Made by a program: the position numbers and the translations under genes. From Acidobacteriota bacterium (GTDB lineage Bacteria; Acidobacteriota; Polarisedimenticolia; J045), in NCBI GenBank assembly GCA_025456425.1, contig JALOKP010000044.1:1-34582 (forward strand): a DNA stretch of 34,582 bases. The letters are read 5' to 3'. The notes below the pieces were generated by a model that did not search any database, had not been told where the DNA came from, and was given only the letters and a program-made list of their open reading frames with translations. This document shows, one piece after another, positions 9,614 through 26,368 of the stretch. Position 1 is the first letter of the stretch. Each line of letters begins with the position of its first letter.

Positions 9614-9750
9614 CGGGCGACTCCCTCCCGCCGGGCGCGGCGGGCGCCCGGGGCGCAGAAGGATAGCCCGTCTCGCGTGCCCCGGCCCGTCGCGGCGTGG
9701 CAGAATACCGCGTTTGGCCCGACCCCCGACCGCCACGGAGCCCATCCTCG

Positions 9751-12700
9751 ATGCCCTACCAGCGCCCGCGCGGGGACTTCCGCTTCGCCGAAGCCGAGCG
9801 GGAGATCCTCCAGTTCTGGAAAGACGCCGCGGTCTTCGAGCGCCAGCTCGCCGAGCGCGCCGGCGGCCCGACCTTCGTATTCTACGAGGGGCCGCCGACC
9901 GCCAACGGCCTGCCCCACAACGGGCACGTCCTGACCCGCGTCGTCAAGGACCTCTTCCCGCGCTACAAGGCGATGCGCGGCTACCACGTGCCGCGCAAGG
10001 CGGGCTGGGACACGCACGGCCTGCCGGTCGAGGTCGAGGTCGAGAAGGAACTGGGGATCCACGGCAAGGCCGAGATCGAGCGCTACGGGATCGAGCCCTT
10101 CACCCGGCGCTGCATCGAGTCGGTCTTCCGCTACACCGAGGAGTGGGAGCGGCTGACCGAGCGGATCGGCTTCTGGATCGACATGCCGTCGGCCTACGTC
10201 ACCTTCCACCGGTCCTACGTCGAGTCGGTCTGGTGGGCGCTGTCCGAGCTGTTCCGCAAGGGGCTGCTCTACCGCGGCCACAAGGTCGTCTGGTGGTGGC
10301 CGCAGGGCGGGACGGCGCTCTCCTCGGCCGAGGTCGGCCTGGGCTACAAGACCGTCGACGACCCGGAGCTGATCGCACGCTTCGCCAGCCGGACGCGTCC
10401 CGGCGTCTCCTACCTGGCCTGGACCACGACGCCGTGGACGCTCCCGTCCAACGCCGCGCTCGCGGTGCGCCCCGACCTGCACTACGTGCTGGCGCGGGTG
10501 GCGCGCGAAGGGCAGCCCGAGGAGCTGGTGATCCTGGCCGAGGCGCTCGCGCCGGAGGTGCTGGGGGAGGCGGGGGTCGAGGTGCTCGAGCGCTTCCTCG
10601 GCGAGGCGCTGGTCGGTGAGTCGTACGAGCCGCTGTTCCGCTACGCCACGCCGGAAGGGGGGCGGGCCTGGCAGATCATCCCGGCCGACTTCGTCGGCTC
10701 CGACACCGGGACCGGGATCGTCCACACCGCGCCGGCCTTCGGCGAGGACGACTTCCGGATCTGTCGCGAGCAGGGGATGGGGTTCCTCCAGCTGCTCGGG
10801 ACCGACGGCCGCTTTCCGGAGGCCGTGACCGACTTCGCGGGCCGTTTCTGCAAGGAGGCCGACCGCGACATCGTGCGCCACCTGCGCGCGCGCGGCCTGG
10901 TCTTCAAGGAAGGGACGGTCCGCCACGAGTACCCCTTCTGCTGGCGGGCCTCGGACGAGCCGCTGATCCAGTTCGCCCGGCCGGCCTGGTTCATCCGCAC
11001 GACCGAGCGGATCGACGACGCGATCGCCAACAACCAGCAGGTCTTCTGGCTGCCCGAGCACATCAAGGACGGGCGCTTCGGCGACTTCCTCGCCAACAAC
11101 GTCGATTGGGCGCTGTCGCGCGAGCGGTGGTGGGGCACGCCGCTGCCGATCTGGCAGTGCGAGGCCTGCGGCGCGCTCGAGGCGCTGGACAAGCTCGACC
11201 GCGCGCTCGAGCGCAACCCCGCGTGCCTCTCCGACTGGGCCGCCGCCTGCGCGAAGGACCCGAACCTGCCCGAGCACCTCGTCGTCCACAAGCCGTGGGT
11301 CGACAAGGTGACCTTCCCCTGCGCCGGCTGCGGTGCGACGATGCGCCGCGTGCCCGAGGTGATCGACTGCTGGTTCGACTCGGGCTGCATGCCGTTCGCA
11401 CAGTGGGGCTTCCCGCACCAGGGGCTCGAGGCGTTCCGCGAGGCCTTCCCGGCCGACTTCATCTCGGAGGCGATCGACCAGACCCGCGGCTGGTTCTACT
11501 CGATGCTGATGGTCTCCACGCTGGTCTTCGACGAGGAAACGCAGCGGCGCTTCGGGGTCGCCCCGCCGCGCGGCTACCCGCACCCCTACAAGGCCTGCAT
11601 CGTGCTCGGCCACGTCGGCGACGCCGACGGCAAGAAGGAGTCGAAGAGCTCGGGCAACTACACCCCGCCCGACCTCGTGCTGGAGGGGAGCTTCAGGCTG
11701 CGCGCGGCCCCCGAGGGGCGGCTCGCCACCCCGCCGCCGCCCGACGCGGTCGTGCTGCTGCCGGCGCAGGTCAAGACGCTCGGCCTGCCCGAGGGGGCGC
11801 GGGTGCGGGTCCACAACGCGAGGCAGCCGGAGCGGGCCTTCGAGGCCCGGCTGCTCCCCGGCCCGGCCGGCAAGGAGTCGATCGTGCTCGGCTCGGCCGT
11901 GCGCGCCACGCTCGGCGTCGAGCCCGACGATCCGGTGCTGATCGACGTGCTGGACGACCCGCCGGGGGCCGACGCCTTCCGCTGGTTCTTCTTCGCCTCC
12001 GGCCCGACCTGGAGCAACTCGCGCAACTCGCTACGCCGCGATCGACGGTTTCGACCCGGCGGAGGGGCTCCCGGCGGAGGGCGGGCGGCTGCCCGACCGG
12101 CGGCGCGGGACGGGCTACCGGCCGGTCGCCGAGCGGTCCCAGCTCGACCGCTGGATCCTCTCGGAGACCGCGCTGACCGCGCGCCGCGTGACCGAGGCGC
12201 TCGACGGCTACCGCGTCTACGAGGCCGCGACCGCGCTGCGCGAGTTCGTCGACGCGCTCTCCAACTGGTACGTGCGGCGCGGCCGCGACCGCTTCTGGGC
12301 GACCGGCTTCTCGCAGGACAAGCGGGAGGCCTTCTGGACGCTGTGGGAGGTGCTGGTCGACCTGGCGCGGCTGGCGGCGCCGTTCGTCCCGTTCTTCGCC
12401 GAGCACACCTGGCGCACGCTGGTCGGCGGCGCGTGGCCCGGGGCGCAGCCCGACAGCGTGCACCTCGCCGACTGGCCCGAGCTTCCGGAGAACTGGATCG
12501 ACCGGCCGCTCTCGCGCTCGATGTCGCTGGCCCGCGAGGTCGTCTCGCTGGGCCTCTCGGCGCGCGCCAACCAGAAGCTGCGGGTCCGCCAGCCGCTGGC
12601 CACGGCGCGGATCTTCCTGGCCGATCACGCCGACGACGCGGCGCTGGCCGCGCTGGCGCCGATCGTCGCCGACGAGCTGAACGTCAAGCAGGTGATCGTC

Positions 12701-13258
12701 GGCGGCGACGCCGAGGCCTTCGTGCACTGGAAGATGCAGCCCAACTTCCGGCTGATCGGGCCGCGGGTCGGCGCGCTGGTGCCGGGCGTGAAGCGGGCGC
12801 TGGCCGCGGCCGACGTGGCGGCGCTGCGCCGGCAGCTCGACGCCGAGGGCACGATCCGGATCGCCGTCGACGGGCAGGAGGTGACGCTGGGGCCGGAGGA
12901 GGTCGCGATCTCGCTGACCGCGCGCGAGCACTACGCCGCGGCCTCGTCGGCGCGCGCCGTCGTCGTGCTCGAGACCGACCTGGACGACGGGCTGATCGCC
13001 GAAGGGCTGGCCCGCGAGTTGATCAACCGCGTGCAGGGGCTGCGCAAGGAGCTGGACCTCGACTACGCCGACCGGATCGAGGTGACGGTCGAGGCCGCGG
13101 GGCGGCTGGCGGCGGCGATCGAGCAGCACCGCGAGCTGATCGCCGGCGAGACGCTGGCGGCCGGACTGGTGGTCGGGCCACCGCGCCCGGGCGCGGCGGT
13201 CAAGGAGACCGAGCTGGAAGGAGAGGTGGTCCGGATCGGGGTCGCGAGGACGGCGTGA
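9751..13258 (+). CDS. ileS: isoleucyl-tRNA synthetase, type 2, disrupted by internal deletion/frameshift near 12031
   Basis: A class I synthetase charging tRNA-Ile. Frame one runs from ATG 9751 with HNGH (56-59) as the HIGH motif, GWDTHGLPVEVEVEKELGI, an editing domain (LAWTTTPWTLPSNAAL, GTGIVHTAPAFGEDD), WFDSGCMPFAQWG and KESKS (629-633) in place of KMSKS. About 90 extra residues (about 645-737) precede GADAFRWFFF. After WSNSRNSL the correct frame changes at about 12031 and resumes as YAAIDGFDP through LDRWILSET, FVDALSNWYVRRGRDRFW, to TGA 13258. Relatives have about 25 residues between these parts that are missing here. As written the product would be non-functional. The first frame stays open and runs into the next gene. 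Confidence 0.88.
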
Positions 13259-14391
13259 GCAGCCGGATCTACCTCGACCACAACGCGACCGCGCCGCCGG
13301 CGCCCGGGATCGCCGAACTGCTGGGGCGGCTCTGGGCCGAGGGCTGGGGCAATCCGTCGTCGGCCCACGCCGAGGGGCGGCGGGCCCGCGCGCTGCTCGA
13401 GGCGGCGCGCGCGCAGGTCGCGGCCGCCGCGGGAGCGGCGCCGGACGAGGTCGTCTTCTGCTCGGGCGGCAGCGAGGCCGACGCGCTGGCGTTGCGCGGG
13501 CTGGCCGAGGCGGGGGACATCGACGCCCTGGTGGTCGGCGCGCTGGAGCACCCCGCGGTCTCCGCCACCGCGCGCCGGCTGGCCGGCGAGCGGGGCCTGC
13601 CGCTGGCGGTCGTGCCCGCGACGCGCGACGGCGTGATCGAGCCGGAGGCGGTGGCGGCGGCGCTGGCCGGGACCCGCCGCGCGCTGGTCGCGGTGATGCT
13701 CGCGCAGAACGAGATCGGCACGCTCAACGACGCCGCCGCGGTGGCGCGCGCCGCGCACGCCCGCGGTGCGCTCGTGCTGGTCGACGCGGTCCAGGCCTTC
13801 GGCAAGGTGCCGCTCGACTTCCGCGCCCTGGGGGCCGACCTGCTGGCGCTGTCGTCCCACAAGATCGGCGGGCCGCCGGGGGTGGGCGCGCTGCTGGTGC
13901 GCGACGGGTTGGCCCCGCGACCGTTCTGCGCCGGGGGCGGGCAGGAGGCGGACCGCCGGCCCGGGACGGAGGCGTTGCCGCTGGCGGTCGCCTTCGGGGC
14001 GGCGGCCCAGGCGGTCCCGGTGCGTCTCGCCGCGGCGCCGGCCGTCGCGGCACGGCGCGACCGGTTCGAGGCCGAGGTGCTGCGCCGGGTCCCCGGGACG
14101 CGCGTCGCCGGCGCGGACGCCCCGCGGCTGCCGAATACGGCGGCACTGGTCTTCGAAGCGCGCGACGGGCGCGGGCTGACCGCGGCCTGCGACGCGCGCG
14201 GGCTCGCGGTTTCCGCCGGGTCGGCCTGCCACGCGGGCCAGGCCGGGCCGTCGGCGGTGATGCAGGCGCTGGGGTACGAGCCCGCGTGGCAGGGCGGGCT
14301 GGTCCGGGTCAGCCTCGGGCCCGCGACGACGGACGAAGACCTGGCGCGGGCCGCCGCCATCCTGGTCGACGCCGTCCGGGAGGCCGCGTGA
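13255..14391 (+). CDS. cysteine desulfurase (NifS/IscS family, PLP-dependent)
   Basis: Removes sulfur from cysteine for Fe-S clusters and other thio-cofactors. The 378-residue class V aminotransferase fold begins YLDHNATAPP and has WGNPSSAHAEGRRAR, the aminotransferase motif FCSGGSEADALAL, EHPAV, LVDAVQAFGK, the PLP lysine Lys203 in SSHKIGGPPGVG, and persulfide Cys325 in SAGSACHAG. It starts at GTG 13255, overlapping the ileS stop as GTGA. The reading frame is the same as the 5' frame of ileS, so a fused call is likely in automatic annotation. No IscU, IscA or MnmA neighbour is present, so the sulfur acceptor is unknown. Confidence 0.93.
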   Translation: MSSRIYLDHNATAPPAPGIAELLGRLWAEGWGNPSSAHAEGRRARALLEAARAQVAAAAGAAPDEVVFCSGGSEADALALRGLAEAGDIDALVVGALEHPAVSATARRLAGERGLPLAVVPATRDGVIEPEAVAAALAGTRRALVAVMLAQNEIGTLNDAAAVARAAHARGALVLVDAVQAFGKVPLDFRALGADLLALSSHKIGGPPGVGALLVRDGLAPRPFCAGGGQEADRRPGTEALPLAVAFGAAAQAVPVRLAAAPAVAARRDRFEAEVLRRVPGTRVAGADAPRLPNTAALVFEARDGRGLTAACDARGLAVSAGSACHAGQAGPSAVMQALGYEPAWQGGLVRVSLGPATTDEDLARAAAILVDAVREAA

Positions 14392-25387: not shown

Positions 25388-26368
25388 GTGAACGCCGCGA
25401 CGATTCTGGTAGTCGACGACAACCGGCTCGTTCGCGAACTGGTCCGCGACGCGTTCGCCGAGGCCGGCTACACGGTCGTCGCCGCCGCAGGCGGGGCCGA
25501 GGCGCTCGACCGGCTCGAGGACGTCCGTGCCGACCTGATCATCACCGACGTCGCGATGCCCGAGATGGACGGCTGGGCCTTCTGCGAGGCGGTCAAGCGG
25601 GACCCGCGCTTCGCCGACATCCCGCTGGTCTTCCTGGCCAGCCACCGCGAGATCCCGGAGCGGCTGCGGGGCTTCCGCCTGGGGGCCTACGACTACCTCT
25701 GCAAGCCGTTCTCCGTGGAAGAGCTGCTGGTCCGCGTCCGGCTGATCCTGGACCGCACCCGGGCCGCGGCGGCGGACGGCGCAGGTGGGAGCGGCGGCGG
25801 GACGCGGGCGCTGGCGGGTCACACCAGCCAGTTCCCGATCGCCGACCTGCTGCAGCTGCTGGCGATCAACGGCAAGACCGGGACGTTGCAGGTGGCCGGC
25901 CGCGAGGCCGGCCGCGTGCACGTGCGCGAGGGGCGGATCGTCGGGGCGGTCGCAGGCGCGGCGCGCGGACGCAAGGCGCTCCACCGGATGATCGGGTGGG
26001 GCGACGCCGACTTCCGCTTCGAGCCGCACGACGACACGTCGGTGGCAGACGACCTGGGGCCCAGCGCGGAGCGCCTGGTGATGGACGCGCTCGTGGCGCT
26101 GGACGATCTGGCGCGCCTGCTCGCCCAGCTGCCGCCTGGCTCGACCCCGGTCGGCGTCGCCGAAGGGGTGCGCGAGCTGCTGGCGAGCCCGGCCGCGCTC
26201 TCGCCGCTCGAGCTGGCGGTGATCCGCGAGGCGCGCGAGCGCTCCAGCCTGGACACGATGCTGGAGCGGATCGACGCCGCCGACGTCGAGATCGCGCGCG
26301 CCTTGGCGGGGCTGCTGGCGCGGGGCGCGATCGCACCGCTGCCGTCCGGCGCGGTGGGGGGCGCGTGA
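25388..26368 (+). CDS. response regulator with DUF4388 (PatA-type) output domain
   Basis: A 326-residue regulator. The intact receiver (1-120) has LVVDDN, phospho-acceptor Asp54 in [12 protein letters not shown], Ser85 and Lys106 in YLCKPFS. After a Gly-rich linker (about 128-142) comes a DUF4388 domain (about 145-225): [39 protein letters not shown] and [18 protein letters not shown] helical C-terminal segment (about 235-326) follows. DUF4388 proteins occur in gliding and predatory bacteria and cyanobacteria and probably mediate protein contacts rather than DNA binding. GTG 25388 was chosen because the receiver begins immediately after it. No partner kinase is adjacent. Confidence 0.88.

Follow-up and report, generated by a model that had tools for sequence, protein, structure and literature searches.

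The ileS locus and its broken reading frame

We analysed a window of 34,582 nucleotides, which is the whole of contig 48 in a metagenome-assembled genome of 4.28 Mb (252 contigs, 84.9% complete), most likely that of an Acidobacteriota. The window carries a gene for isoleucyl-tRNA synthetase, ileS, that is divided over two reading frames and followed by a cysteine desulfurase gene (Table 1). The catalytic half is read in frame 1 (9751–12030) and its C-terminal residues are WSNSRNSL, while the anticodon-binding half opens with YAAIDGFDP in frame 2 (12032–13258) and runs to a stop codon. The GTG start of the desulfurase gene overlaps this stop (GTGA), and the desulfurase itself lies in ileS frame 1. 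The combination of the frame change, the high GC content and the desulfurase in frame 1 gives rise to a spurious open reading frame of 1564 amino acids (9697-14391), which gene callers may report as an IleS–cysteine desulfurase fusion protein.

Table 1. Features of the ileS region in the window, with the evidence for each.
Feature	Coordinates	Strand	Evidence
ileS 5' part (catalytic domain, frame 1)	9751..12032	+	P0001 matches relatives' IleS, PF00133, TIGR00392
Inserted domain, predicted double-psi beta barrel	11686..11949	+	Alignment, AlphaFold2, Foldseek
ileS join, 71 bases missing	12031..12033	+	Codon alignment, spacing versus homologues, codon-usage frame break
ileS 3' part (anticodon-binding domain and DUF5915 C-terminus, frame 2)	12032..13258	+	P0002, PF08264, PF19302
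Cysteine desulfurase (NifS/IscS-like)	13255..14391	+	ORF list, sequence

Both parts were readily recognised as IleS. The product of the 5' part (P0001) shared 70-79% identity with the IleS of relatives over residues 1-762 and on its own scored 633.8 bits against TIGR00392, above the cut-off of 621.4, and the 3' half scored 118 bits against the same model. Based on Pfam, PF00133 was present in the 5' part, and PF08264 and PF19302 (DUF5915) in the 3' part. The window gene thus resembles the bacterial IleRS that carry DUF5915 (TIGR00392; PF00133, PF08264 and PF19302) in having all three domains, and differs from them by the 71 missing bases and by a predicted double-psi barrel after the KMSKS motif. 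The 3' part was 58-76% identical to the relatives and contained zero in-frame stops over 408 codons; its divergence from them was protein-like and resembled that among the intact relatives themselves. A real inactivation of ileS would therefore need to be very recent.

A codon alignment with 8 relatives of the same family located the break at 12031/12032, with an ambiguity of two bases, since the dinucleotide CT can be assigned to either side. Between NSL and YA all 8 relatives carried RAIREQQNEFLVRWSNVLSFFLI without interruption, and thus 71 bases, or approximately 23 residues, are lost from the window gene (…NSL-RAIREQQNEFLVRWSNVLSFFLI-YA…), with a frame shift of +1; the missing residues are the first part of the anticodon-binding domain. 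The same size was obtained from the spacing of homologous ORFs of the same family and of distant Myxococcota and Deltaproteobacteria: the gap in the window gene minus the expected gap was exactly −71 bases for most of the ORFs compared. No homologue with an assembled join showed the gap, and ileS genes of the same family on contigs that are complete there form a single frame of 1190–1196 codons. A codon-usage screen placed the frame break at 12028. Type 2 IleS is read in one unbroken frame through the anticodon-binding domain, and the window gene is not, a break that we attribute to the assembly.

A preliminary description had placed an internal deletion with frame change at about 12031, between the same two flanking peptides, and had anticipated that residues would be missing once both frames were aligned to homologues; both points were borne out by the alignment. 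Its estimate of the loss (75-90 bases) held as to the loss itself, though the size is slightly smaller.

We also inspected the surroundings of the join for sequence that might have guided a deletion. A 9-base direct repeat, GCAACTCGC, occurs twice just upstream; it encodes normal residues and was discarded as a deletion boundary. At the join itself there is just a 2-base CT match, and an origin by a tandem repeat or by long microhomology was dismissed.

An inserted domain with a predicted double-psi beta-barrel fold

The window IleS contains an inserted domain that lies after its KMSKS loop (KKESKS in this protein) and before the GADAFRW motif; 101 residues separate the two motifs. Every same-family relative covering the region has this domain, and versions of greater or smaller length occur in IleS of Myxococcota and Deltaproteobacteria (carried by L039-L049, L051, L053, L054, L056, L058-L060 and L063). 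It was absent from L019, L021, L050, L052 and L064, as well as from the relatives in Planctomycetes and Clostridia that we examined. The AlphaFold2 model of the domain had a pLDDT of 85, and its best Foldseek matches were the double-psi β-barrel domains of CDC48/VCP (E values of 1e-6 to 1e-5). A profile search against solved structures likewise indicated a double-psi β-barrel like that of the CDC48/VCP N-domain. The domain is real, conserved and unaffected by the lesion, and it possibly modulates the KMSKS loop or the contact with tRNA. Our literature search found no paper describing such an insert in IleS. Finally, two of the public records carrying the domain (L042 and L043) are labelled as Klebsiella pneumoniae and Bifidobacterium breve metagenome-assembled genomes and hold a deltaproteobacterial-type IleS; these organism labels look wrong.

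Frame breaks across the assembly

We screened for frame breaks without recourse to homology, scoring positions at which codon usage switches to another frame of the same strand although no stop/start boundary lies between. The sample comprised 0.975 Mb of this genome (approximately 23%), and the control comprised 0.612 Mb from two other assemblies, those of relatives G009 and G004. Strong breaks numbered 25 in the sample versus 2 in the control (binomial p=3e-4), that is 25.6 per Mb here and 3.3 per Mb in the relatives. At this rate 0.89 strong breaks are expected in DNA of the length of the window, and one was observed, the ileS join. A weaker signal at 25536 on the minus strand (score 1.32, below the strong threshold) lies opposite a plus-strand response-regulator gene and is probably noise.

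Breaks fell in housekeeping genes, and for several of them the missing length was estimated from profile matches on both sides. The groEL gene, of which the genome holds a sole copy split across contigs C223 and C189, lacks approximately 40 residues at an internal join (L226:3706, contig C189). Strong breaks were also found in mfd (L231:3355; ~19 residues missing), the gene for PEPCK (~11), an ABC ATPase gene (~40), etfA (L221:5414; ~35) and a gene for a COX1-type oxidase subunit (~40). A tblastn comparison with the ORFs of the relatives showed a loss of approximately 67 bases with a frame change in a copy of rpsA; a second S1-like gene is present elsewhere in the genome, so that single-copy status is not proven for every broken gene. 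The losses at the breaks amounted to approximately 35–120 bases. Duplications were detected as well: an exact tandem duplication of 46 bases in the gene of a MacB-like permease on contig C140 (L197:4538, minus strand), likely a duplicated contig overlap, and another of 13 bases (L229:370). The sampled contigs contained zero Ns from the assembly, and the GC content of the genome was 72%.

No second ileS was found by a search of the assembly (84.9% complete) for the IleS family. The weaker matches to class I synthetases were identified by their translations as other enzymes, namely ValS (C157), the N-terminus of LeuS at a contig end (C226), MetS (C181) and CysS (C183), and were set aside as candidates. 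An inactivated ileS with a replacement would be accompanied by a second intact copy, which this 84.9% complete assembly does not show. Nor was the missing piece found on another contig, as a 60-residue probe matched just the truncated left edge at the window locus. The relatives have a single type 2 ileS each. The preliminary description had offered two ways out for an essential gene, a loss during assembly or another copy in the genome; the former is supported by the rates of breaks (~26 versus ~3 per Mb), and the latter was not found.

Origin of the lesion and its meaning

The frame change in ileS is almost certainly an artefact of the assembly, very probably produced by mis-joined pieces, and the actual ileS of the organism is almost certainly intact, as in its relatives. 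The lesion is absent from the intact relatives, its class recurs far above the level in related assemblies, and losses occur together with duplications, all three as an artefact of this kind would have it. Bases lost at some joins and duplicated at others, with the joins unrelated and spread over housekeeping genes, are the pattern expected of imprecisely joined contigs, and exact tandem duplications such as those of 46 and 13 bases are expected when overlapping pieces are joined. Moreover, with so many breaks in housekeeping genes, including the sole groEL, all of them could not coexist in a living cell.

As to the exact cause, we infer imprecise joining of contigs or scaffolds rather than another fault of the assembly. 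Neighbouring pieces would have been placed end to end with the true gap or overlap unrecorded; this would have cost up to approximately 120 bases at many of the joins and duplicated short stretches at a few, and one such faulty join inside ileS would have removed the 71 bases. The absence of assembly Ns in the sampled contigs fits unrecorded joins or the removal of N runs, though it does not prove them. A chimeric join of two unrelated organisms was not supported, as both halves resemble the same family and their divergence is of similar order on both sides. Among all 72-base windows of the family's ileS, the missing stretch ranks in the top ~1% for nucleotide conservation. Furthermore, the assemblies of two relatives break at the ileS site or up to approximately 65 bases upstream of it: in G007 two contigs meet there with a 62-base overlap, and in G003 a contig starts there. 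The coincidence of both contig ends with the site has a rough Poisson estimate of ~0.05. The site is a plausible trouble spot for assembly, for which these contig ends are only suggestive. According to the account of Cooley & Wright (2024; PMC11017572), assembly faults commonly make false pseudogenes in draft genomes. Our case is like theirs in the raised counts of broken genes arising from assembly, which they treat as a sign of poor correctness, and differs from what is set out there in that many of the breaks cost tens of bases or carry a short tandem duplication at the join, and in that the genome was assembled from a metagenome.

A genuine 71-base deletion, present in at least some of the population, whose cells would live with an isoleucyl-tRNA synthetase in two pieces or with a substitute for it, is very improbable. 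One form of this would be a real and very recent deletion that inactivated ileS, while another ileS, located in the ~15% of the genome that is not assembled, supports the cell. At a completeness of 84.9% such a copy could indeed be absent from the assembly, and a very recent event would leave the 3' half just as undecayed as we found it. Yet the assembly holds no trace of a second ileS, each relative has one of type 2, and with equivalent breaks in excess across the genome the ileS join calls for no explanation of its own; we consider this deletion highly unlikely. Another form would have both halves expressed separately and assembling into a working split enzyme. Each half is an open frame, and other lineages do have split aminoacyl-tRNA synthetases, such as the LeuRS of Aquifex. 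Here, however, the ~23 residues that start the anticodon-binding domain are missing from both halves instead of being redistributed between them, frame 2 offers no common start codon before 12188, approximately 50 codons into the domain, and the 5' half would read on past the join in the wrong frame and enter the following gene. The genes are moreover unsplit in all complete relatives, and a split enzyme is hardly conceivable.

The loss might alternatively have arisen in sequencing or library preparation, by a polymerase skipping a GC-rich hairpin or by chimeric reads, rather than in the joining of contigs. The 72% GC content and the shortness of the losses would suit such an origin, but the 2-base match at the ileS join is at about chance level and the tandem duplications at other joins are better explained by contig joining, which leaves this origin extremely unlikely. 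The loss is an artefact under this explanation as well as under contig joining.

The main value of the ileS lesion is as a warning about an assembly with many short intragenic losses and duplications. Broken genes, fused ORFs and apparent gene absences in this assembly are not to be taken as biology, and broken marker genes may also depress estimates of its completeness. The gap in ileS is almost certainly not a real feature of the living bacterium.
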